Shown piece by piece: positions 4,065 to 60,564 of a stretch of DNA of 64,000 nt. Position 1 is the stretch's first letter. Every line of letters starts with the position of its first letter. The position numbers and the translations under genes are program-made. The notes under the pieces are model-generated. The model searched no databases. It was not told the origin of the DNA and saw nothing but the letters and a program-made list of their open reading frames with translations. Location: the NCBI GenBank assembly GCA_031274925.1, contig JAISPL010000014.1, positions 1 to 64,000 on the forward strand. The letters run 5' to 3'. Source of the stretch: Syntrophobacterales bacterium (GTDB lineage Bacteria; Desulfobacterota; Syntrophorhabdia; Syntrophorhabdales; Syntrophorhabdaceae).

Positions 4065-4364
4065 ATGTTTGTTTTTGGTAATCTTTTAAGTGGAATAGCG
4101 TATATAGTTAATCTACTGTTTGAGATATATTTGTGGATGGTAATTATAAGGACGATCCTTTCCTGGATCCGGCCAAACCCATACCATCCCTTGGTCAGGA
4201 TTATTTATGGGGCCGTGGATCCTGTGACATACCGAATTTCAAAACTTCTTCCCATGAGGGCAGGCATGTTCGATATGGCGCCCTTTGTAGTCATACTGAT
4301 CATCATTTTTCTCCAGCATTTTCTGGTAAGAAGTCTTTACGACCTGGCCGCCAGGCTGGGATAG
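4065..4364 (+). CDS. YggT family integral membrane protein
   Basis: 99 aa with two hydrophobic segments (about residues 6-28 and 72-92) joined by a loop with the family motif SWIRPNPYHPLVRIIYGAVDP. YggT proteins are small inner-membrane proteins of unclear function, often next to DUF167 (YggU) or cell-division genes, as here. The ATG at 4065 follows a GGAGAAG ribosome-binding site; an upstream in-frame TTG at 4026 would add 13 residues not seen in the family and is rejected. Confidence 0.88.
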   Translation: MFVFGNLLSGIAYIVNLLFEIYLWMVIIRTILSWIRPNPYHPLVRIIYGAVDPVTYRISKLLPMRAGMFDMAPFVVILIIIFLQHFLVRSLYDLAARLG

Positions 4365-4408
4365 GGAAACCCTTCGTTGTCCATGATGACGTTGGGTTTG
4401 CGTGTGAT

Positions 4409-4675
4409 ATGAACATAGAAATAAGGGTGGTGACAAGAGCAAAGAGGCAGGCGATCACGAGAGAAGGAACCTCCCTGAAAGTCAAGCTGACCTCGCCTCC
4501 AAGAGACGGCAAAGCAAACGAGGAACTCATCGGAAACCTCGCGACTTTCTTTGGTATCAGGAGGTCCGATATAGTAATTGTGAGAGGAGAAAAGGATAGG
4601 CGCAAGGTTGTCTCAGTCCCTCTGACTGAAGATGAGTTTATGGTAAAGATGGCGGGAATATCGGAGGGTAAATGA
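4409..4675 (+). CDS. DUF167 / YggU family protein
   Basis: 88 aa. It shows the DUF167 signature: RVVTRAKRQ, the LKVKLTSPPRDGKANEELI block and the strand DIVIVRGEKDRRKVVSV. The family is small, soluble and of unknown function; the pairing with yggT is widespread. ATG 4409 is the only start giving a family-length product; the long open frame to the left overlaps yggT. No clear terminator follows, but a strong promoter for the next operon starts 80 bp later. Confidence 0.87.
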   Translation: MNIEIRVVTRAKRQAITREGTSLKVKLTSPPRDGKANEELIGNLATFFGIRRSDIVIVRGEKDRRKVVSVPLTEDEFMVKMAGISEGK

Positions 4676-4754
4676 GCATGCCCTGTGAAAATACCATGGC
4701 CTCCCAAGAGGGCAAATATGGGAAAAAGGCAACGGTTACAACGAGTTAATTTGC

Positions 4755-4783
4755 TTGACAACCAAGTTTAAACCCATTATATT
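4755..4783 (+). promoter_or_regulatory. Near-consensus sigma-70 promoter for the rpmF-plsX-fab-rib operon
   Basis: TTGACA at 4755-4760, a 17-bp spacer, then TATATT at 4778-4783, 22 bp before the DUF177 start codon. The -35 is perfect and the -10 matches four of six with optimal spacing. Genes on the right follow with short gaps or overlaps as far as nusB, so this may be the main promoter for about 12 kb. Confidence 0.75.
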
Positions 4784-4805
4784 ATCTAACTTTTAGAGAA
4801 GGTTA

Positions 4806-5324
4806 ATGGTTATCAGAGTCTCTGAGATAGAAGGAGAAGTAAGAATAAAGGGTGCCGTGGAGGGTTTGAAAACTCCTGGCGCAGAAGAGGGCGCTGATGT
4901 AGTATTCCATACCCCGGTTGAATATGAGCTTCTGGTCAGAAGGAGTGGAGACATCATGCGTGTCAAAGGATCGGTAGGCTGTACTCTTACGTTGACATGC
5001 AGCAAGTGCATGGATGAGTTTGCCTTTCCGGTTGACGCGGAGTTGGATATAGAACTTGCACCGAAAACGCTGATGCTGTCGGCGTCGGAATTGGAACTTA
5101 AAGGTGAGGACCTTGATGTGTATTACTATGATGGGGATGAGATTGAGTTTGATCCTTTCATATACGACGAAATAATGCTCAACGTGCCAATCAAGCCTGT
5201 CTGCGGAGAGGATTGTAAAGGGTTGTGTGAGGTATGCGGAGCTAACAGGAATCATGAAGAGTGCCGTTGCGCTGTGACAGCGGGCACATTGTTTGGCGAG
5301 AAATTAAAATTTTTTTTAAATTAG
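4806..5324 (+). CDS. DUF177 (YceD-like) protein
   Basis: 172 aa with the DUF177 layout: an N-terminal region, the core motif CTLTLTCSKCMDEF near residue 58 and a C-terminal Cys-rich tail (CGEDCKGLCEVCGANRN). The family is encoded directly upstream of rpmF in most bacteria, as here; E. coli YceD has been linked to 23S rRNA accumulation. The six C-terminal cysteines suggest metal binding. The ATG at 4806 follows AGAGAAGG. It is the first gene of the long operon. Confidence 0.9.
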   Translation: MVIRVSEIEGEVRIKGAVEGLKTPGAEEGADVVFHTPVEYELLVRRSGDIMRVKGSVGCTLTLTCSKCMDEFAFPVDAELDIELAPKTLMLSASELELKGEDLDVYYYDGDEIEFDPFIYDEIMLNVPIKPVCGEDCKGLCEVCGANRNHEECRCAVTAGTLFGEKLKFFLN

Positions 5325-5337
5325 CGAGGAGAGTGTC

Positions 5338-5520
5338 ATGGCTGTTCCAAAGAGGAAGACGTCACAATCAAAAAGGGATAAAAGAAGAACCCATTATAAG
5401 GCCACCCCGGTGACGGTGGTTGCTTGCCCGAGCTGTAAAGAGCCTAAGCTTCCACATATGATCTGTCCCAAATGCGGGATGTATAAAGGGAAGAAATACC
5501 TGGAAGTAAAGGAAGCATAG
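5338..5520 (+). CDS. rpmF: Large ribosomal subunit protein bL32
   Basis: 60 aa, full length. It begins MAVPKRKTSQSKRDKRR, the hallmark of bL32, and carries a zinc ribbon with two CxxC pairs (CPSC and CPKC), so it is the zinc-binding (C+) form. The position between DUF177 and plsX is the standard gene order. A GAGGAGAG ribosome-binding site lies just upstream. Confidence 0.97.
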   Translation: MAVPKRKTSQSKRDKRRTHYKATPVTVVACPSCKEPKLPHMICPKCGMYKGKKYLEVKEA

Positions 5521-5523
5521 TTA

Positions 5524-6531
5524 ATGGTGAGGATTGCAGTAGATGGCATGGGGGGGGATTTTGCGCCTCATGCGGTTATAAGAGGGGCCGAGGCGGTACA
5601 CAGCGCGAGGATCGCAGATGTAGTCCTTGTCGGCGATGAAGCGAGGCTCAGCCCCTTGGTACACGATTCGACCATCCAGATTGCCCATACCCCAGTTGAA
5701 GTGGGAATGGATGAATCACCCTCGAACGCCCTGAGAAAGAAAAGAGACTGTTCCATGAACGTAGCCTTGGAGCTTATGAAGGAAGGGACTGTCCAAGGAG
5801 TGGTAACAGCCGGAAACTCGGGGGCGGCAATGGGTTTTTCTATTTTTACTCTGGGGAGATTGTCCGGTGTTGACAGACCCGCCATTGCCACGCTGCACCC
5901 GAACGCAAAAGGTGGCACCACGGTGCTCATAGATTCGGGCGGCAATGTGGACTGTAAGGCAGGCCATATCGTTCAATTTGCCATAATGGGTGATATTTTC
6001 GCCCGATGCGCTTTTGGCTTTGCGGCCCCGAAAGTAGGATTGCTGAGCAATGCCACGGAGGAGACGAAAGGCAATGAACTTACCCGTGAGGCAAACAGCA
6101 TTCTTAAGACCATGGACCTTAATTATCTCGGATACGTGGAAGGGACCGATATACACAACGGAAATACGGATGTAGTGGTGACCGACGGATTTGTCGGAAA
6201 CGTGGCTCTCAAGATTACCGAAGGGATAGCCGAGATGCTGATGCTCTCCCTGAAGGAACAGGCAAGAGACAGAGCCAACGATAAGACCGGTCAGGCTGTA
6301 CTCGAAGAAACAATGAAGCGGGTTAATCGGAGGTTTGATTACACCAACATCGGGGGAGCGCCCCTTTTGGGTGTCGACGGAATCTCCATTATTTGTCATG
6401 GCAGATCAAGCCATCATGCGATACGAAGTGCCATCATTATGGCAAAAAACTTTGTGGATAAGAATCTGAACCAGTCAATCAAAGAAACAATGCGGAATTA
6501 CGAGTCGCTTCAGAAGATAAAGGAGAGATAG
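5524..6531 (+). CDS. plsX: Phosphate acyltransferase PlsX
   Basis: 335 aa. It opens RIAVDGMGGDFAPHAVI and has the PlsX blocks TAGNSGAAMG and NATEETKGN. PlsX is a peripheral membrane enzyme that converts acyl-ACP and phosphate into acyl-phosphate, the donor for PlsY in phospholipid synthesis. It starts 3 bp after rpmF. Most genomes have fabH next; here the neighbour is an acyl-CoA dehydrogenase. Confidence 0.96.
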   Translation: MVRIAVDGMGGDFAPHAVIRGAEAVHSARIADVVLVGDEARLSPLVHDSTIQIAHTPVEVGMDESPSNALRKKRDCSMNVALELMKEGTVQGVVTAGNSGAAMGFSIFTLGRLSGVDRPAIATLHPNAKGGTTVLIDSGGNVDCKAGHIVQFAIMGDIFARCAFGFAAPKVGLLSNATEETKGNELTREANSILKTMDLNYLGYVEGTDIHNGNTDVVVTDGFVGNVALKITEGIAEMLMLSLKEQARDRANDKTGQAVLEETMKRVNRRFDYTNIGGAPLLGVDGISIICHGRSSHHAIRSAIIMAKNFVDKNLNQSIKETMRNYESLQKIKER

Positions 6532-6532
6532 G

Positions 6533-7696
6533 ATGGATTATTTCCTCACAGAAGACCAGAAACATATTCGTTCTCTGGCTCGCAGAATCGCGGAAGAAAA
6601 AATTGTGCCGATTAGAGCTGAGCTGGATGAAAAAGAGGAGTTTCCTTGGAGTACGATGAAAGTATGCGCCGAAACAGGCCTTTTTGGCGTGAGTATCCCG
6701 ATAGAATATGGCGGATTAGGCGGTGGGTGTCTCGAAAACTGCATTGTTGTCGAAGAATTGAGTAAGGCATGTCTTGGCGTTTCGGTAAGCTATGCGGCGA
6801 GTCTGCTCGGTGCATACCCGATCCTGATCGGCGGATCTGAGGAACAGAAGAAAAAGTACTTGAGCCAGATCGCCTCGGGCAAGAAGCTAGGAGCTTTCGG
6901 CCTCACCGAGTCGGGTGCGGGGAGCGACGCCCAGGGTATCAGAACCGAAGCAAAAAAAGTGGGAGACTACTATATTCTTAATGGCACGAAGCAGTGGATT
7001 ACAAATGGAGGGGAAGCAGACATTTACACGGTCGTAGCAAAAACCGATAAGACTAGAGGCGGAAGGGGTGCTACGGCCTTTATCGTGGAAAAAGGTATGG
7101 AAGGCTTCTCTTTTGGCAAGAAGGAAAACAAACTTGGCATCCGGGCATCAGCAACCCGTGAGCTCGTATTTCAGGATTGCAAAATTCCCAAAGAAAATGT
7201 TATAGGTAGAGAAGGAATGGGATTTATTTATGCTATGCGGACCTTTGATAAGACAAGGCCTGGCATTGGCGCCCAAGCTGTAGGGATAGCCCACGCTGCA
7301 CTTGATGCCGCCGTGCACTATGCAAAGGAGCGGGAGCAGTTTGACAGGAAGATAGCATCCTTCCAGGCTATCCAGCATATGCTCGCCGACATGGCGACGC
7401 AGGTTGAAGCTGCCCGCGCTCTGGTATATTCAGTGGCGCGCTTTATAGATAGCAACCCGAAGGATACTTCGAAAGTTTCTGCCATGAGTAAAGTGTTTCC
7501 AAGCGATGTGGCGATGAAAGTCGTTGTGGACGCAGTGCAGATCTTCGGTGGTTACGGATATATGAAGGAATATCCCGTCGAAAAAATGATGAGGGATGCA
7601 AAAATATTACAGATTTATGAAGGGACGAACCAGATACAGAGAAATGTGATAGGGCTTGAGCTTATCAAGGAAGCGGCCCAGAAGAGAAGCAAATAA
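6533..7696 (+). CDS. Acyl-CoA dehydrogenase in the fabH position
   Basis: 387 aa, family length. The FAD-binding motifs are present (FGLTESGAGSDAQGI and WITNGGEADIYTV), as is the catalytic-base motif YEGTNQIQRNVIG near the C-terminus, so it should be active. ACADs oxidise acyl-CoA to trans-2-enoyl-CoA with electrons passed to ETF; short-chain substrates are likely from overall similarity, but the chain length cannot be read from sequence. It starts 1 bp after plsX and overlaps fabD by 1 bp, so it is a firm member of the fatty-acid operon. A catabolic enzyme between plsX and fabD, with no fabH in the window, is unusual. Confidence 0.93.
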   Translation: MDYFLTEDQKHIRSLARRIAEEKIVPIRAELDEKEEFPWSTMKVCAETGLFGVSIPIEYGGLGGGCLENCIVVEELSKACLGVSVSYAASLLGAYPILIGGSEEQKKKYLSQIASGKKLGAFGLTESGAGSDAQGIRTEAKKVGDYYILNGTKQWITNGGEADIYTVVAKTDKTRGGRGATAFIVEKGMEGFSFGKKENKLGIRASATRELVFQDCKIPKENVIGREGMGFIYAMRTFDKTRPGIGAQAVGIAHAALDAAVHYAKEREQFDRKIASFQAIQHMLADMATQVEAARALVYSVARFIDSNPKDTSKVSAMSKVFPSDVAMKVVVDAVQIFGGYGYMKEYPVEKMMRDAKILQIYEGTNQIQRNVIGLELIKEAAQKRSK

Positions 7697-8634
7697 TGAA
7701 AAAGGTAGGTATTGTATTTCCAGGTCAAGGCTCGCAGTATGTGGGTATGGGGAAAGAACTGTACGATCAGTTTGAGGATGTACGGACCCTGTACAAGACA
7801 GCGGATGCAGCCTTGGATTTCCCGATAACGGACCTCTGTTTCAACGGGCCAGAAGAGGAATTGAGACAGACGTACAACACTCAGCCTGCGTTACTCCTTA
7901 CGAGTTATGCCGTGTGGCAGGTATTAAGGAAGGAGACTGGGATTGCCCCGCATATGCTGGCAGGACACAGTCTTGGAGAATATACGGCGATGCTCGCGGG
8001 CGGCTTCTTTACTTTTGAGGATGCTCTGAAGATAACGAAGAAAAGAGGTCTTCTTATGGAGGAGTCGTGTCCAAAAGGGAAGGGCGGTATGGTGGCGCTC
8101 ATAGGGGCGGATATGGGGAAGGTTGAACCTGCACTCCAAGAAATTTCTCATGGAGACTATGTGGCTGTCCCGGCCAATCTTAACTCTGCCGATCAGGTGG
8201 TCCTTTCCGGCGACATTGATGCATTGAAAGAGAGTGTCGAGAAATTGAAGGGCATTGGATTCAAGAAGGCCGTTTTTCTGAATGTGTCCGGGCCTTTTCA
8301 CAGCCCCCTTATGAAAAAGGGTGCGGATAGGCTCAGGGAAGAGCTTAATGCCCTGCAAAAATATGACACTATATATCCGGTTATTTGCAACGTGGATGCC
8401 TCACCTGAGCAAAGCGGTAACGCTATTGTGGAAAAGCTTTACAGGCAGATGTTCTCTCCTGTTCGCTGGGAGCAGAGTGTCCGGAGAATGGCGCAGGAAG
8501 GTGTTGAAATTTTCGTCGAGGTAGGACCTCAAAAGGTGCTTGCCAATTTGATCAAGAGAATTGAACCAGTCGTTCCCTGCTATAGCGTTGAGGGGATGAA
8601 TGATATGGAAGTTCTGAAGAGAGCGCTTGCATGA
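7696..8634 (+). CDS. fabD: Malonyl-CoA:ACP transacylase
   Basis: 312 aa. It shows VFPGQGSQYVGMG at the N-terminus, the nucleophile elbow GHSLGEYTA near residue 90, and the histidine motif NVSGPFHSPLM. It transfers malonyl groups from CoA to ACP. The start codon shares one base with the stop of the acyl-CoA dehydrogenase, which supports translational coupling. Confidence 0.96.
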   Translation: MKKVGIVFPGQGSQYVGMGKELYDQFEDVRTLYKTADAALDFPITDLCFNGPEEELRQTYNTQPALLLTSYAVWQVLRKETGIAPHMLAGHSLGEYTAMLAGGFFTFEDALKITKKRGLLMEESCPKGKGGMVALIGADMGKVEPALQEISHGDYVAVPANLNSADQVVLSGDIDALKESVEKLKGIGFKKAVFLNVSGPFHSPLMKKGADRLREELNALQKYDTIYPVICNVDASPEQSGNAIVEKLYRQMFSPVRWEQSVRRMAQEGVEIFVEVGPQKVLANLIKRIEPVVPCYSVEGMNDMEVLKRALA

Positions 8635-8662
8635 CACAAAAGCCCACAAGGAGTATTTCCCG

Positions 8663-9388
8663 ATGAAAAATACGGTTACGATTGTTACGGGAGCCGCGCA
8701 GGGCATAGGGAGAGAAGTCGCCTCGTTTCTTGCCGAAAAAGGCGGAGATATCGCCATATTTGATATTGCGGATGCAGCGGAGACGGTGGAGAGGGTGAGG
8801 GTGCAGGGTCGCAAAGCCGAATTCTACCATGTGGATGTGACTGATTTTCGTGCGGTGGAGGTGGCGGTTGGCGAGGTTCAGAAAACCTTTGGCAAGATAA
8901 ATGGTCTTGTCAACAATGCTGGTATCACTAACGACAAGCTTCTCATACGCATGAAAGAAGAAGATTGGGACAGAATCATCAATGTGAATCTGAAGAGCGC
9001 TTTCAATTGCACCAGGGCGGTGGTCAAATCCATGCTGAAAACAGGTGGGGCTATAGTGAATATCACCTCTGTCGTGGGCGTGATGGGGAACCCTGGCCAG
9101 GCCAATTACGCAGCCAGCAAAGCGGGGCTCATAGGGTTCACAAAGAGTGTGGCGAAGGAATATGGAGAGAGGGACATCAGGGTTAACGCGGTCGCGCCGG
9201 GTTATATAAGAACCAAGATGACGGACGAACTGACTGAGAGACAAAGGGACGAGATGCTAAGGGCAATTCCCTTGGGCAGGCTCGGAAAGACCACAGATGT
9301 TGCACGTATTGTTTATTTTCTTCTCTCGGAAAGTGGCGGTTACATTACCGGAGAAGTAATAAACGTAAACGGTGGTTTACATATGTAG
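8663..9388 (+). CDS. fabG: 3-oxoacyl-ACP reductase
   Basis: 241 aa. SDR fold with the NADPH motif GAAQGIGREVA, NNAGITND, the catalytic YAASKAG and a C-terminal GGYITGEVINVNGGLHM. It reduces 3-oxoacyl-ACP. ATG 8663 follows AAGGAG; the upstream in-frame codon at 8627 overlaps fabD and is rejected. Confidence 0.95.
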   Translation: MKNTVTIVTGAAQGIGREVASFLAEKGGDIAIFDIADAAETVERVRVQGRKAEFYHVDVTDFRAVEVAVGEVQKTFGKINGLVNNAGITNDKLLIRMKEEDWDRIINVNLKSAFNCTRAVVKSMLKTGGAIVNITSVVGVMGNPGQANYAASKAGLIGFTKSVAKEYGERDIRVNAVAPGYIRTKMTDELTERQRDEMLRAIPLGRLGKTTDVARIVYFLLSESGGYITGEVINVNGGLHM

Positions 9389-9418
9389 TGGGAAATTTTT
9401 CCCCCTACTTATCATTGA

Positions 9419-9670
<252 letters not shown>

Positions 9671-9686
9671 CGAGGGGTGGACGGCA

Positions 9687-10928
9687 TTGAAGAGGAGAGT
9701 AGTTGTCACAGGAGTAGGTCTGGTAACACCCTTGGGTAGCGCAAACGAGAGTGTCTGGAACCGAATACTGAAGGGTGAGTCGGGCGTGTCAACCATTACT
9801 AGGTTTGACACGTCCCGCTTTGACACGAAGATTGCGGGAGAGATCAAGGACTTTAGTCCGGAAGATCACATATCCCACAAAGAGATCAAGAAAATGGATC
9901 TTTTTATCCAGTATGTTCTGGTCGCAGCAAGGGCTGCCATAGGCGATGCAAAACTTGATATGAAGTCTGAAGATGCGACCAGAGTGGGAGTTGTTGTCGG
10001 CACAGGTCTCGGAGGTCTTCCAACCTTAGAAAAGTACCACACCATTCTTCTTGAGCGAGGCCCCAGCAGAATATCGCCCTTTTTCATTCCCATGTTAATT
10101 GCGAACGAGGCGCCAGGGCATATTGCCATTGAGCACGGAATCAAGGGTCCCAATCTTTGCGTGGTGACAGCCTGTGCGACGGGCGCTCATTCCATCGGTG
10201 ATGCGTTCCGGATCATTCAATATGGAGATGCGGACGTCATGGTTGCAGGTGGTACGGAAGCCAACATCACCCCCCTTACTGTGGGCGGCTTTAACGCAAT
10301 GAAGGCCCTTTCAAGAAGGAACGATGAGCCGGCCAAAGCTTCAAGGCCGTTTGAGCGAGACCGGGATGGATTTGTCGTGGCGGAGGGCGCAGGTGTTTTG
10401 GTTCTGGAGGAACTTGAGCACGCAGTGAAAAGAGGCGCGAAGATATATGCAGAGCTTGCCGGTTATGGCTATAATGGCGATGCGTACCACATTACCGCAC
10501 CGCACCCTGATGGGGAAGGGTTTGTAAGATGCATGAAAATGGCTTTAAAGGATGCAGCAGCATCCGTAGAAGATGTGGATTATATTAATGCTCATGGGAC
10601 TTCCACCGACATGAATGATCAAATTGAGACGATGGCGATCAAGGAAGTCTTTAAAGACTTTGCTTATAGGATACCCGTGAGTTCCACAAAATCAATGACG
10701 GGCCATCTGCTTGGCGCTGCCGGTGCCGTAGAAGGTGTTTTTACAGTTCTCGCCATAAGGGATCAAGTGTGCCCGCCCACCATTAACTATGAGAATCCGG
10801 ACCCTAAATGTGATCTTGATTATGTGCCTAATATGGCAAGAAGCCATAAAATAGAATTGGCGATGTCAAATTCCTTCGGTTTTGGCGGGACTAACTGTAC
10901 GCTCGTTTTTCGGAGATTCAAGGCGTGA
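9687..10928 (+). CDS. fabF: Beta-ketoacyl-ACP synthase II
   Basis: 413 aa. Catalytic triad motifs are complete: cysteine in [12 protein letters not shown], histidines in [11 protein letters not shown] and [14 protein letters not shown]. It elongates acyl-ACP with malonyl-ACP. Translation starts at TTG 9687, placed 8 bp after CGAGGGGTGG, giving [16 protein letters not shown]; no ATG fits. As fabH is absent from this locus, initiation of the chain must use another synthase elsewhere or a bypass. Confidence 0.95.
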
Positions 10929-11380
10929 AGGTAGCCATAGGTTCAGATCATGCGGGATACGAGTTAAAGGAATACCTGAAGAATATCTTGAAGTTGGGGG
11001 GCTACGAGTGTACCGATGTGGGAACAGACACGGAGGTGTCGGTGGACTACCCGGATTTCGGTCTGAAAGTGGCCGGACTTGTATCGTCCGGTGAGGTAGA
11101 AAAGGGTATTCTGGTTTGCGGTACCGGTGTCGGGATGAGCGTTGTGGCTAATAAAGTAAAAGGAATCAGGGCTGCACTCGCCCAAGACCTTTACGCTGCC
11201 ATACAGAGCAGACGGCATCTAGACACAAATATCCTGGTTCTCGGGGGCCGTGTGATCGGCAAAGGCCTTGCAGAGGAGATCGTCAAGGTATGGTTCGATA
11301 CTCCTTTCGAAGGTGGGAGGCACGGCAAGAGAATCGACAAAATTTTGGTATGGGAAGATAAACACCTCTTAAGGTCATAA
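10925..11380 (+). CDS. rpiB: Ribose-5-phosphate isomerase B
   Basis: 151 aa. The motifs are [14 protein letters not shown], the catalytic cysteine loop [20 protein letters not shown] and NILVLGGR. It interconverts ribose-5-phosphate and ribulose-5-phosphate, supplying precursors for nucleotides and for the riboflavin genes downstream. The GTG start overlaps the fabF stop by 4 bp (GTGA). Confidence 0.94.
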
Positions 11381-11382
11381 TA

Positions 11383-12633
11383 ATGAAGAAAGAAGATTGC
11401 AAGGACCAGCAGATTTATGAGCTTGTAAGGCGTGAAATTGAGCGCGAAGAGCACAGTTTAATACTTATAGCTTCGGAAAATTACGTGGACGAGGAGATCT
11501 TGGATATCCAGGGCTGTGTATTGACGAACAAGTACGCTGAAGGGTATCCGAGCAAAAGATACTACAGCGGTTGCCGGTTCTTGGACGAGATTGAAGCCAT
11601 TGCGATCAATCGGGCCAAAACACTGTTTCAGGCAGAACATGTGAATGTTCAGCCCCACTCAGGTTCGTCTGCGAACATGGCGGTTTTTTATGCGGTTCTG
11701 GCTCCTGGAGACAAGATTCTTGGCATGGATATTGCTCATGGAGGTCATCTTACTCATGGTGCCCGTGCCAGTTTTTCCGGCAAATATTATAACGCCATAG
11801 GATACAAGGTCTCATCAACGGATGAGATGCTTGACTATGACGAAATCCGCGCCATTGCCCTCAGAGAAAAACCGAAAATGATCATTGCGGGCGCAAGCGC
11901 CTATCCCAGGATTATAGACTTCAGGAAATTCAGAGAGATCGCCGACGAGGTTGGGGCATATTTGACGGTCGACATGGCCCATATCGCCGGACTCGTGGCG
12001 GTGGGTTGCCATCCAAGTCCTATGGAACATGCGCATTTTGTGACCACCACCACCCACAAGACGTTAAGGGGCCCCAGAGGAGGGTTGGTCTTCTGCAAGA
12101 AGGAATTTGCAAAGGCGATTGATTCAGCTGTTTTTCCTGGTCTGCAGGGGGGTCCTCTCATGCACGTCATTGCAGCAAAGGCGGTCGCGTTTCAACAGGC
12201 AATGACACCGGAATTCACGCAGTACCAGAAACAGGTTATAGCCAACGCAAGGCGTTTGTGCGGCAACATGGAAAAGAGAGGATACAGGATAGTATCTGGT
12301 GGTACGGACACACACCTGTTCCTTGTTGACCTCTCGGGCAAAGGAATTACCGGAAAAGAGGCTCAGGAGTATCTTGAGTCCAGCGGCATCATGATCAATA
12401 AGAACCTTATCCCCTTTGATTCAAAGGGGCCTAATATTACGAGCGGAGTTAGGATTGGGACTCCTGCAGTTACGACAAGAGGAATGAAGGAAGAGGAAAT
12501 GGACGTGATCGCGGAGTTGATGGACAAAACCTTGACGAATCTTAACAACGAAGCGATCTACAGTGAAATAAGAGGCCAAGTGAAGGCCTTATGCGAGAGA
12601 TTTCCTTTCTACTCCCGTATGCGTATGGTATGA
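11383..12633 (+). CDS. glyA: Serine hydroxymethyltransferase
   Basis: 416 aa. The PLP lysine lies in [14 protein letters not shown], and [26 protein letters not shown]-type N-terminal conservation is clear. It makes glycine and 5,10-methylene-THF from serine, giving one-carbon units for thymidylate and purines. It starts 2 bp after rpiB and its stop overlaps the next start (ATGA). The rpiB-glyA order is common in this group. Confidence 0.96.
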
Positions 12634-13109
12634 GTATTTCCCGTCCTGGCTGGGATTCTTACTTCATGGAGATAGCGAGAATCGTCTCGAAAAGGTCTAC
12701 ATGTAAAAGAAGAAGCGTTGGGGCGTTGATCGTAAAGGATAAGAGAATTCTTTCCAGTGGATACAATGGTGCACCTATGGGGCTTGCTCATTGTTCTGAC
12801 AGGCAGTGTCTCAGAGAGATACTCAAAGTTGCACCTGGGGAGAGACACGAGTTGTGCCGTGGTCTGCACGCCGAACAGAATGCGATCATCCAAGCTGCAT
12901 ATCATGGTGTCTCCATAAATGAAGCCCAGTTGTACACAACCCATTTACCCTGCTCAATATGTATAAAAATGGTTATGAATGCTGGCATCTCAACGGTTCT
13001 CTACATTGACGGGTACCCTGACGAGCTTGCCTCTGAGTTGATGAACGAATCGGCAATGATCATACGAAAAGTCAAGATGGCAGGAAGGGCCACCAAATTG
13101 CGGACATGA
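12630..13109 (+). CDS. dCMP deaminase (ComEB-like)
   Basis: 159 aa. Zinc-dependent cytidine/deoxycytidylate deaminase: catalytic HAEQNAI and zinc cysteines PCSIC. It converts dCMP to dUMP for thymidylate synthesis, which uses the methylene-THF made by glyA just upstream. ATG 12630 overlaps the glyA stop by 4 bp; the earlier in-frame start lies inside glyA and is rejected. Confidence 0.92.
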
Positions 13110-54700: not shown

Positions 54701-56509
54701 CTATTCCCCGGCTTTCGTGAGGTCTTCGAATTTGATGTCGAGTCCAAGCACGCCCACTATCTCGCCCACCTGGTCCCTGACGGGGCACGACACGGTGACA
54801 CACAGGGCGCCGGTGAACTTGGAGGAATAGATATTCGTGACGCTGATCTTCCCTGACTTTATAGGGTTGATATACCATTCCCTGTCCGAGAAGTCCTCAT
54901 TTAGACCAATCTTGTGGTACTTGGCCCTGTCGAAAACTTGATTGATATTTTTGGTGATCTTTATCCCCTCGCTGTTCACGATGTAGGCGAACTGAATGTA
55001 AGGATACTCTTCCACGATATTGCTAAGAACTTTCTCTTGCTTTTCCGGGACCATCGTCTTGATGTCCGGATCTTCGATATATTTCTCGATCAAATTAGCC
55101 GCCATGTCGTAGGCCCTCTTTTTTAGCAATTCGAACTCGGATACGAATATTTCAGGTACGTATCTCCTCACGAGGTGTTCTATCTCATTATCCGATATAA
55201 CGGTTACACGGCCTTCATCGTATTGTTTGAGTATCCATTTATTGACCTTGGCTACCCCGGGATGTGTCCTTTCGATCCTGTCTTTTCCTAAAAGGGCGAA
55301 GTGAGAATTAATCCAGTGTGCGATACCAGAGAGTCCTGACTTGTCGGTAATATTTATAGTAAGCGGCCGATTCAGAATTCTGTCGGTGTCAAAGGGGATG
55401 TAGATCTCCTCATTTTTGACTATACCATCGATATGGACGCCGGCTGACGTGGTGTTAAAGTCGATCCCGATGAAAGGCTGACCTCTGGGGATCTGATGGC
55501 CGAGCTCTTTTTCGAAGTAATTGCGTGTTTCGGTGATGGTTTGCGTGTCTATTCCGTTTGTGTCGCCCATGAGACTGATGTATTCCATTATGAGCCCTTC
55601 AATAGGGGCGTTCCCGGTTCTTTCGCCGATACCGAGAAGCGTTCCATTTACATAAGTGCAACCGTAAAGCCAAGAGCTTACACTATTGACCACGACTTTG
55701 TTGAAATCATTATGGCCGTGCCATTCCAGACATTCAGAAGGAACGCCTGCATCGTCGATCATGACCCTCACCAGCTTTCCTATGGCTCTGGGCAACGCTG
55801 CCCCTGGGTACGTGACGCCTATGCCGAGGGTGTCGCACAACCTTATTTTAATCGGGACCTTCGCGTCCTCGGCAATATTCATCAGTGCCTGCGCGAAAGG
55901 TACGCAGAACCCGTATATATCTGCTCTTGTCACATCTTCAAGATGGCATCTCGGTATAATCCCATGTTCGAGCGTATCCTCCACGATCCTGATGTAGTCC
56001 TCGAATGCCTGCGACCTGGTCTTTTTCAACTTGAGAAATATATGATAATCTGAACAGCTTGTAAGGATTCCCGTCTCTTTAATGCCGAGGTCTCTTACGA
56101 GCTGTAAGTCATCTTTCTTTGCTCTTATCCAGCCGGTAATCTCGGGGTAACGATATCCTTTCGAACGGCACCTTTCAATGGCATCGCGGTCTTTATTGGT
56201 ATAGAGGAAGAACTCACTCTGCCTGATAACCCCTTTGGGACCCGATAACCGATGGAGCAGATCAAACAGGTCCTCAATCTGCGCGGCGGTAAACGGCGGC
56301 CGGGATTGTTGGCCGTCCCGGAACGTGGTATCCGTGATATATATGTCCTCGGGTGGATCAATAAGCTCAATCTTGTGATCGAATTTTATCTTGCAGACTT
56401 CAGAGAATGGGAACATATCCCTGTAAAGTTCGGGTTCCTCTACGTCTATAAGCGGGTACTTCGCGCCCTTAGAAACATTTTTGAAAATGAAACCCGATTT
56501 CTTTCTCAA
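54701..56509 (-). CDS. Re-type citrate synthase (HMGL family) with C-terminal Cache-like domain
   Basis: 602 aa. Residues 50-430 are a DRE-TIM metallolyase-like synthase: [44 protein letters not shown]. Pattern and neighbours match Re-citrate synthase as known from Clostridium kluyveri and Syntrophus aciditrophicus, not homocitrate or isopropylmalate synthase. The C-terminal 150 residues are extra: a helix ([20 protein letters not shown]) and a Cache/PDC-like fold ([13 protein letters not shown], then DFSDREWY at 539-546, then VSCPVRD and VGVLGLDI). No signal peptide or membrane helix is present, so this sensor-like domain is cytoplasmic. TTG start after GGGAGG. Confidence 0.83.
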
Positions 56510-58623: not shown

Positions 58624-60564
58624 ATGGAAACTACTCAATTACGCCGTATTTATAGGAGATTAAAAAAATTTTTACCAGACCCAGGAGAGGTCTATCTCAT
58701 TCAGTCGATTGAGGCGCAAATGCTCTTTGTCTGCGAGAAGGAGACAATTCTGGAGCGGTATGACGCGTCAACCTCCAGCTTCGGGAACGGAATCAGGGAA
58801 GGCTCGTTCAAGACGCCACCGGGCGTCCACAGAATCGTAGAGAAAATAGGCGCCGGTGCTCCACTGGGCCGTATTTTTAAAGAATGCCGTGATACGGGTG
58901 CCGATTGGGACGGCGTCTCCATGGAAGAAAATCTGATACTTACCCGTATTTTACGACTGGAAGGAATGGAGACAGGGGTCAACAAGGGCGAGGGCGTGGA
59001 TTCATGGGGACGTTGTATTTACATCCATGGTACGAATCGGGAGGACCTTGTAGGCATGCCTCTGTCTCACGGTTGCCTATGTCTGCGTAACGACGATATC
59101 ATCCGTTTGTTTGAGACGGTGAGGGAGGGAGTGGTCATCTTCATTGAGCCTCCGCCCGTGGTAATCGGTGAAACCTCATGCTGGAGTATCCATTTTACGG
59201 GTGTCTTTGGTACCGGCATGAGCGCTTTGGCGCAATACCTGCGCTTTCAGGGTATTTTTGTCTCCGGCTCCGACCGTCTCCTTGTCAGTGAGGACACAGT
59301 CCCCATCCGGCAAGGCCTTGAGGGTCTTGGGTGTGACATTGTAAATCAGGACGGCTCTGGGATTGATGAGGATACCGATATTGTCTGCATCTCTACGGCA
59401 ATAGAAGAAACAAATCCCGATATTGCCACTGCCCACGCTTTGGACCTTCCCATTGTGCATCGTTCAGATCTGCTTGCCGCAATTATCTCGTCCCATAGGA
59501 CGGTTGCCGTCGCGGGCACGAGCGGCAAATCGACGGTGACGGCAATGATCTTTGAGTTTCTGACTGCGTGCGGGAAATCGCCTTCTCTCATAAGCGGCGC
59601 GGCCTTGCTGAGACTTGAGAAGCAGGGGCTTATCGGCAATGCATTCAGCGGAGGTTCCGATCTTATGATTGTTGAAGCTGACGAGAGTGACGGGACGTTG
59701 ACCAAATATTCTCCTCATGCAGCGGTTATTCTTAATGTTTCCAAGGATCACAAGAGTGTAGATGAAATAAGGGCGCTTTTCGAGACGCTCGTTTCGAAAA
59801 GCGGATGGACTGCTTTGAATGCGGACGATCCCATACTCGCTTGTCTTCCTCGGGCAGTCGGTTTCGGCGGGAATACCTCGGCATCGTGGAGACCTGACCG
59901 CGAGGAACTTTTCAGCACCTCGGTGAAGCTTTCTCGCAATGGTATCGAATATCACCTGCCGCTCCCAGGAAATCATAACCTGGAAAACCTGCGGGCTGCT
60001 CTCTGTGTATGTGAGTATTTCGGTTGCGAGGAACTTCCTCTTGCCGATGGGGTGAAGAATTTTGAGGGCGTTGCCCGACGTTTTTCAGTAACAGGGACGG
60101 AGGACGGTGTCCATGTAGTTGATGATTTCGCCCACAATCCGGCGAAGATAGCCGCTGCCGTAAACGCGGCAAGAGGCCTCTCGGGGCGCATCGTTGCTGT
60201 GTACCAGCCTCACGGGTTTGGTCCCACGAGGTTTCTGAAAGATGAATACATTTCGACCTTCCAAGCCGTCTTTCGACGGGAAGACTCACTATATCTTCTG
60301 CCGATTTATTACGGTGGAGGCACAGCGGAAAAGAACATCGCCTCGGAGGATATCGTAAACGGTTTGGGCCTCGTGCCATTTCATGCCTGTGCGGTAACGA
60401 GCCGCAGCGAACTACTGGCGGGATTGATAGCTGACGTGACGCCGGGCGACTGTGTTCTCGTAATGGGAGCCAGAGATCCGTCGCTGCCCGCTCTTGTGAG
60501 GAAAGTGGTCAATCTTTTTGGCGGAACAAAGAGAAAAGGTGTGACCGTCCAGTCATCGGAATAA
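58624..60564 (+). CDS. L,D-transpeptidase (YkuD) fused to a MurC/Mpl-like Mur ligase
   Basis: 646 aa. Residues 20-178 are a YkuD domain: YLIQSIEAQMLFVCEKE, KTPPGVHRI, then IHGTNRED (His135) and LSHGCLCLRNDD with catalytic Cys151 and Arg155. Residues 187-635 are a Mur ligase: N-terminal HFTGVFGTGMSALAQYL (MurC/Mpl-type Rossmann), ATP loop GTSGKST (298-304), EADESDG (351), GNHNLENLRAAL and VVDDFAHNPAKI. There is no signal peptide or membrane helix, so the normally periplasmic YkuD domain would be cytoplasmic. A role in recycling or editing of peptidoglycan peptides is inference. The ATG follows GGACGGAG. Confidence 0.88.
   Translation: METTQLRRIYRRLKKFLPDPGEVYLIQSIEAQMLFVCEKETILERYDASTSSFGNGIREGSFKTPPGVHRIVEKIGAGAPLGRIFKECRDTGADWDGVSMEENLILTRILRLEGMETGVNKGEGVDSWGRCIYIHGTNREDLVGMPLSHGCLCLRNDDIIRLFETVREGVVIFIEPPPVVIGETSCWSIHFTGVFGTGMSALAQYLRFQGIFVSGSDRLLVSEDTVPIRQGLEGLGCDIVNQDGSGIDEDTDIVCISTAIEETNPDIATAHALDLPIVHRSDLLAAIISSHRTVAVAGTSGKSTVTAMIFEFLTACGKSPSLISGAALLRLEKQGLIGNAFSGGSDLMIVEADESDGTLTKYSPHAAVILNVSKDHKSVDEIRALFETLVSKSGWTALNADDPILACLPRAVGFGGNTSASWRPDREELFSTSVKLSRNGIEYHLPLPGNHNLENLRAALCVCEYFGCEELPLADGVKNFEGVARRFSVTGTEDGVHVVDDFAHNPAKIAAAVNAARGLSGRIVAVYQPHGFGPTRFLKDEYISTFQAVFRREDSLYLLPIYYGGGTAEKNIASEDIVNGLGLVPFHACAVTSRSELLAGLIADVTPGDCVLVMGARDPSLPALVRKVVNLFGGTKRKGVTVQSSE

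Follow-up and report, generated by a model that had tools for sequence, protein, structure and literature searches.

A cytoplasmic ElsL-like YkuD domain fused to a separate lineage of UDP-MurNAc ligases, a candidate bifunctional enzyme of peptidoglycan recycling

Results

Architecture of the fusion gene

The window analyzed here, a 64,000-nucleotide stretch of contig JAISPL010000014.1 from a Syntrophobacterales bacterium, contains an ORF at 58624-60564 on the forward strand, which starts with ATG and runs as a single uninterrupted frame with zero internal stops. Pfam searches of the encoded 646-aa protein revealed a YkuD domain followed by three Mur ligase domains, each scoring above its curated cut-off. 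No domains beyond these were found by Pfam, and thus no peptidoglycan-binding domain. The features of the gene are as follows:

58624..60564 (+): whole CDS, an ElsL-like YkuD domain fused to a MurC/Mpl-type UDP-MurNAc ligase, 646 aa
58693..59139 (+): YkuD (L,D-transpeptidase/L,D-carboxypeptidase) domain, residues 24-172 (Pfam PF03734, 2.8e-13; NCBIfam ElsL NF040925)
59026..59028 (+): codon of His135, the catalytic histidine, kept in 37/37 homologues
59074..59076 (+): codon of Cys151, the catalytic cysteine (S-H-G-C), kept in 37/37 homologues
59086..59088 (+): codon of Arg155, kept in 33/37 homologues
59188..59496 (+): Mur ligase N domain (UDP-MurNAc binding), residues 189-291 (Pfam PF01225), with G215-S216-D217 and N264-P265 common to MurC and Mpl
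59509..60012 (+): Mur ligase middle (ATPase) domain, residues 296-463 (Pfam PF08245, Mur_ligase_M)
59515-59535 (+): GTSGKST P-loop, residues 298-304, invariant in 37 homologues
59674-59688 (+): EADES, residues 351-355, within the middle domain
60076..60474 (+): Mur ligase C domain (acceptor binding), residues 485-617 (Pfam PF02875)
60121..60141 (+): DDFAHNP, residues 500-506, with Tyr346 of MurC replaced by Phe as in Mpl, and the second His replaced by Asn
60205..60231 (+): QPHGFGPTR, residues 528-536, a lineage signature in which His376 of Haemophilus influenzae MurC is kept, Arg377 is replaced by Gly and Arg380 by Pro
60463..60486 (+): MGARDPSL, residues 614-621, a lineage signature in place of GAGD of MurC and SNGG of Mpl

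Inspection of the N-terminus (METTQLRRIYRRLKKFLPDPGE) by eye showed no signal peptide or transmembrane helix. Met1 is invariant in the 37 full-length homologues, which indicates that the start codon is assigned correctly, and an AlphaFold2 model of the fusion was confident (pLDDT 85.1, pTM 0.85). The gene product is confirmed as one leaderless protein containing a YkuD domain and a complete three-domain Mur ligase. The first-pass annotation, made from the DNA letters, had described just this: the YkuD motif (His135, the SHGC with Cys151, and Arg155), a complete Mur ligase with GTSGKST and EADES in the same 646-aa frame, and no secretion signal. It had also allowed that the frame might be two separate genes. 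That reading, and with it an assembly chimera, was rejected, as approximately 37 full-length homologues, 63-76% identical, are present in different assemblies from two phyla or more.

The immediate surroundings of the gene in the window (an aspS-like gene upstream in opposite orientation, a gene for a UbiE-type methyltransferase downstream, and nuo-like genes) were uninformative on function.

The YkuD half most resembles ElsL

Among the YkuD-family models, the NCBIfam model of ElsL (NF040925) gave by far the best match (4e-30), aligning residues 30-174 with model positions 13-158 of 164. Models of L,D-transpeptidases (LDTs) in NCBIfam matched about 50 residues of the catalytic stretch only, at 1e-7 or worse. 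The ElsL score was 104.7 bits for the query and up to 136 bits for the fusions, under the curated cut-off of 270 bits. An AlphaFold2 model of residues 1-180 (pLDDT 84.2) had Bacillus subtilis YkuD (1y7m) as its best match (E 4e-8, with a modest TM of ~0.5). Arg155 is replaced in 4 of the 37 homologues and is therefore not strictly required; it was dropped as an essential residue.

ElsL of Acinetobacter baumannii is a leaderless, cytosolic YkuD L,D-carboxypeptidase of muropeptide recycling, which converts disaccharide-tetrapeptide to the tripeptide (PMC8649774). In its absence Mpl re-uses tetrapeptides, giving rise to aberrant precursors, and losing either mpl or ampG rescues an elsL ldtAb mutant from its defect (PMC8649774). 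Both ElsL and LdcA carry out this tetra- to tripeptide step upstream of Mpl (PMC8649774). The premise of the first-pass annotation that YkuD enzymes act in the periplasm is therefore outdated, and a cytoplasmic YkuD enzyme is not new by itself. A periplasmic LDT was rejected for the protein studied here, given the lack of a leader and the best match to ElsL. The published survey of ElsL orthologs considered free-standing proteins of 105-200 aa and dropped those over 200 aa (PMC8649774), so that the fusion, at 646 aa, was invisible to it.

The host has three further YkuD proteins; each has a signal or membrane segment at its N-terminus, as judged by eye, and none was matched by the ElsL model. 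In a set of 60 relatives of the host, all strong ElsL-type matches (>=90 bits) lay within the fusion.

The ligase half falls outside both MurC and Mpl

The ligase half has the hallmarks of the UDP-MurNAc ligase superfamily, with three Mur domains, the P-loop, EADES and the UDP-MurNAc residues of the N domain, and its donor- and ATP-side residues are common to the fusion lineage, MurC and Mpl. The closest structures to the fusion model were those of MurC (1p3d/1p31, TM on target 0.77-0.79) and Mpl (3hn7, 0.75). Against the curated models, the ligase half scored 274 bits for MurC (TIGR01082, cut-off 335.1) and 99.3 bits for Mpl (TIGR01081, cut-off 388.7), below the cut-off in each case.

The acceptor side differs from both. 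In H. influenzae MurC, L-Ala is held by Tyr346, His348, His376, Arg377 and Arg380 (PMC3060825), and an alignment to this protein places Phe, His, His, Gly and Pro at the five positions. Gly and Pro replace the two arginines in every fusion and in all 14 standalone members tabulated, which makes a second MurC unlikely. The Mpl-specific (S/T)AFFDKRSK and EPR(S/T)NT, signatures of the tripeptide site, are absent from the fusion, and DGTLTKYSP follows EADES. A motif table showed that QPHG[FY]GPTR (second Gly rarely Ala or Ser), DD[FY]AHNP, SGK[ST]T and GARD are common to the fusions and their standalone relatives, and that this set does not occur in MurC or Mpl.

In a phylogenetic tree, MurC and Mpl grouped together to the exclusion of the fusion lineage (100/100), with Mpl forming its own clade (100/100). 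The fusion ligases lay apart; their sisters are two standalone ligases of 50% identity (93/98). The deep order of the standalone groups hinges on the long-branched MurD outgroup. Two standalone ligases of ~70% identity, in genomes G031 and G008, nest inside the fusion clade, the former beside the fusion of G019 (100/99); because of this placement, their YkuD half has probably been lost. An S66-type LdcA is present in G031 and absent from G008. By curated models, substrate-site residues and phylogeny, the ligase half is thus assigned to a third lineage. Of the earlier description as a MurC/Mpl-like ligase, the shared fold and the donor and ATP motifs stand, whereas membership in either family does not.

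Occurrence of the fusion

A search of contigs returned six full-length homologues (64-76% identity), labelled as Syntrophaceae/Syntrophus/Syntrophobacterales, Nitrospirae/Nitrospiria and, in one case, a Fibrobacteres MAG; the last, from a contig of 6 kb, may be a binning error. The fusion is present in 28/60 relatives of the host and in 10/246 genomes of a second phylum (that of genome G330), one copy being incomplete. Even sampling of the host's own phylum recovered the ligase lineage in 15/297 genomes, the matches outside the host family being standalone. Plasmids yielded ordinary MurC only, at ~32% identity. The architecture occurs widely among uncultured bacteria, covering one family of Desulfobacterota type and part of the Nitrospirota.

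Across genomes it is usually a lone gene with changing neighbors, and operon context is mostly uninformative. The one informative case is genome G017, where it lies 205 bp after ftsZ at the end of the dcw cluster, the order of which, named from translations, is murE-murF-mraY-murD-...-murC-murB-ddl-ftsQ-ftsA-ftsZ.

The ligase lineage and Mpl do not co-occur

The ligase lineage was found in 97 of 306 genomes and Mpl in 19, with both in none. For the 60 relatives of the host, the counts were 31 (28 as the fusion), 8 and 0, and for the 246 genomes of the second phylum, 66, 11 and 0. Fisher tests of the exclusion gave p = 0.0017 and 0.039, values that ignore shared ancestry and are descriptive only.

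LdcA of the S66 family (Peptidase_S66) accompanies Mpl in 19/19 genomes, and in 13/19 the mpl gene lies within ~2 kb of the S66 gene on one strand (10/11 in the second phylum, 3/8 among the host relatives). The two genes overlap by four bases in G053, where an APH-type kinase gene lies just before them. Among fusion genomes, S66 is present in 5/28 host relatives and 0/10 of the second phylum, and none of the 66 second-phylum genomes with the ligase lineage contains it.

Standalone MurC-like ligases with QPHG[FY]GPTR and GARD were also observed (loci L159-L164, L126-L130 and L133-L140, and ~56 second-phylum genomes). They are 33-41% identical to the ligase half of the fusion, score around or under the MurC cut-off, and were present in about one in five of the genomes drawn from the G330 phylum. 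A search for a shared partner or conserved neighbors of these standalone genes found none. In 56 second-phylum genomes, a standalone ligase is present and both S66 LdcA and Mpl are absent. Together with the missing peptide-site motifs of Mpl, this suggests that the ancestral acceptor may differ, and that across the entire ligase lineage the acceptor may be a different or a broader one.

Recycling genes and MurC of the host

The host encodes MurC, MurD, MurE and MurF together on contig C57, the MurC scoring 557.7 bits against the cut-off of 335.1; the separate murC that the first-pass annotation had asked about therefore exists. A recycling cluster is present elsewhere in the host genome (L107, G000:C42:26000-43728, at 6732-12943). 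It contains an ampG whose product scores over the curated cut-off and which overlaps a GH3 gene (NagZ-like). Opposite ampG, and convergent with it, are genes for an APH kinase (AmgK-like), an NTP transferase (MurU-like) and a SpoIID-domain protein.

Discussion

We propose that the fusion is a bifunctional cytoplasmic enzyme of peptidoglycan recycling, a one-polypeptide stand-in for LdcA or ElsL plus Mpl, and put the probability of this reading at roughly 70%. Both activities, and the tripeptide as the acceptor, are what we infer. AmpG would bring in anhydromuropeptides; the ElsL-like YkuD half, via Cys151 and His135, would act as an L,D-carboxypeptidase and cut the terminal D-Ala off L-Ala-D-Glu-mDap-D-Ala; and the Mur half would then join the tripeptide to UDP-MurNAc. 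Coupling of trimming and ligation would keep tetrapeptides out of dead-end precursors. A fusion would make sense because, in the established pathway, an untrimmed tetrapeptide that has been ligated cannot receive D-Ala-D-Ala (PMC8649774). The suggestion in the first-pass annotation of cytoplasmic L,D-cleavage coupled to ligation in a recycling enzyme is favored by the evidence in its core, with its premise about YkuD enzymes and its identification of the ligase corrected.

Trimming may come before or after ligation. A variant that differs in this order is post-ligation proofreading, in which the ligase would take both tri- and tetrapeptides, and the YkuD half would trim UDP-MurNAc-tetrapeptide in the manner of a tRNA synthetase editing domain. 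Tetra- and pentapeptides are slow substrates of Mpl (PMC3060825), precursors with an aberrant tetrapeptide are toxic (PMC8649774), and editing of the product would favor physical fusion. In the known pathway, however, ElsL acts on muropeptide tetrapeptides before ligation, and we regard the proofreading order as rather unlikely.

The acceptor could instead be something other than the tripeptide, with the ligase joining UDP-MurNAc or another nucleotide sugar to a molecule prepared by the YkuD half. The QPHGFGPTR motif, different from those of MurC and Mpl, is consistent with this, as are the standalone members in 56 genomes without S66 and Mpl and without conserved neighbors. However, ElsL-type YkuD enzymes are specific for the mDap-D-Ala bond, with tetrapeptides and not pentapeptides as substrates of the class, and both the dcw-linked copy in G017 and the apparent replacement of Mpl and LdcA point to murein peptides, so that a different acceptor for the fusion seems improbable.

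A second MurC, adding L-Ala to UDP-MurNAc with YkuD as a regulatory or unrelated passenger, would agree with MurC being the top ligase model and the top structure match. We reject this very improbable reading, since the score falls short of the MurC cut-off, no member retains either arginine of the L-Ala site, MurC and Mpl cluster without the fusion lineage, and a true MurC is already encoded in the dcw cluster. Scarcely to be expected is exchange editing, in which the YkuD half would put glycine or a different D-amino acid in place of the terminal D-Ala, or form a cytoplasmic L,D bond, before re-use: the fold is that of YkuD enzymes, which commonly catalyze exchange, but the family matched best is that of the carboxypeptidase ElsL and not the LDTs, and ligation of a modified tetrapeptide would be unproductive because MurF cannot extend it.

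Comparison of the proposed recycling enzyme with known systems shows likenesses to several of them. It shares with ElsL a leaderless YkuD domain, the catalytic Cys and His, an alignment over nearly the whole domain and an expected tetra- to tripeptide conversion, but ElsL is free-standing (model length 164), whereas the present domain is part of a ligase fusion and does not reach the curated cut-off. With Mpl (TIGR01081, PDB 3hn7) it has in common the three-domain UDP-MurNAc ligase fold, DDFAH and the expected re-attachment of peptides, but it lacks AFFDKRSK and EPR(S/T)NT and is phylogenetically separate, and Mpl uses a separate carboxypeptidase. MurC (TIGR01082, PDB 1p3d) is closest in fold and sequence model and shares the ATP and UDP-MurNAc motifs, whereas the fusion has SGK for HGK, Gly and Pro for Arg377 and Arg380, and a sub-cut-off score. 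The LdcA and Mpl gene pair, adjacent in relatives, provides the pair of functions proposed here, but with an S66 protease fold and in two polypeptides rather than one. The bifunctional MurC-Ddl protein (NCBIfam NF011171) is a precedent for a MurC-type ligase fused to a cell-wall enzyme, although its partner Ddl is biosynthetic and not a carboxypeptidase.

A broader view is that the ligases form a third UDP-MurNAc ligase lineage for re-attaching murein peptides, with the fused YkuD domain as a gatekeeper or proofreader admitting only MurF-extendable peptides to the precursor pool; this we advance tentatively, at a little short of even odds. In the current view, peptide recycling takes two separate proteins, a carboxypeptidase and a ligase, and where Mpl is missing the stem peptides are often presumed to be degraded to amino acids. 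If the proposal is correct, peptide re-use is under-counted in genome surveys, as it would also proceed by a widespread one-protein route on a different ligase lineage. The fusion would also be a natural example of step coupling, with one protein controlling the toxic tetrapeptide problem of ldcA/elsL mutants. The proposal further suggests that the present scoring as MurC is wrong for some ligases of Nitrospirota and their relatives.

The YkuD-ligase fusion appears to be undescribed, as the first-pass annotation had held of the enzyme. A search of the open-access literature turned up no paper on it; on the other hand, the architecture is widespread and cytoplasmic YkuD enzymes are known.

Two further observations concern other loci. 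In L117 (G048:C111:48000-60000, at 4357-7875), a class-C-beta-lactamase-like gene, identified by eye, lies between the genes for S66 LdcA and Mpl in one gene run. The window itself encodes, at 54701-56509 on the reverse strand, a 602-aa HMGL-like enzyme (isopropylmalate/homocitrate synthase type) with a C-terminal Cache/PDC sensor domain (PF22673, 8.5e-16; PF02743, 2.3e-14) and no obvious membrane segment. This sensor fusion is unusual, and its gene adjoins those for the large and small subunits of a dehydratase and for an isocitrate/isopropylmalate dehydrogenase.
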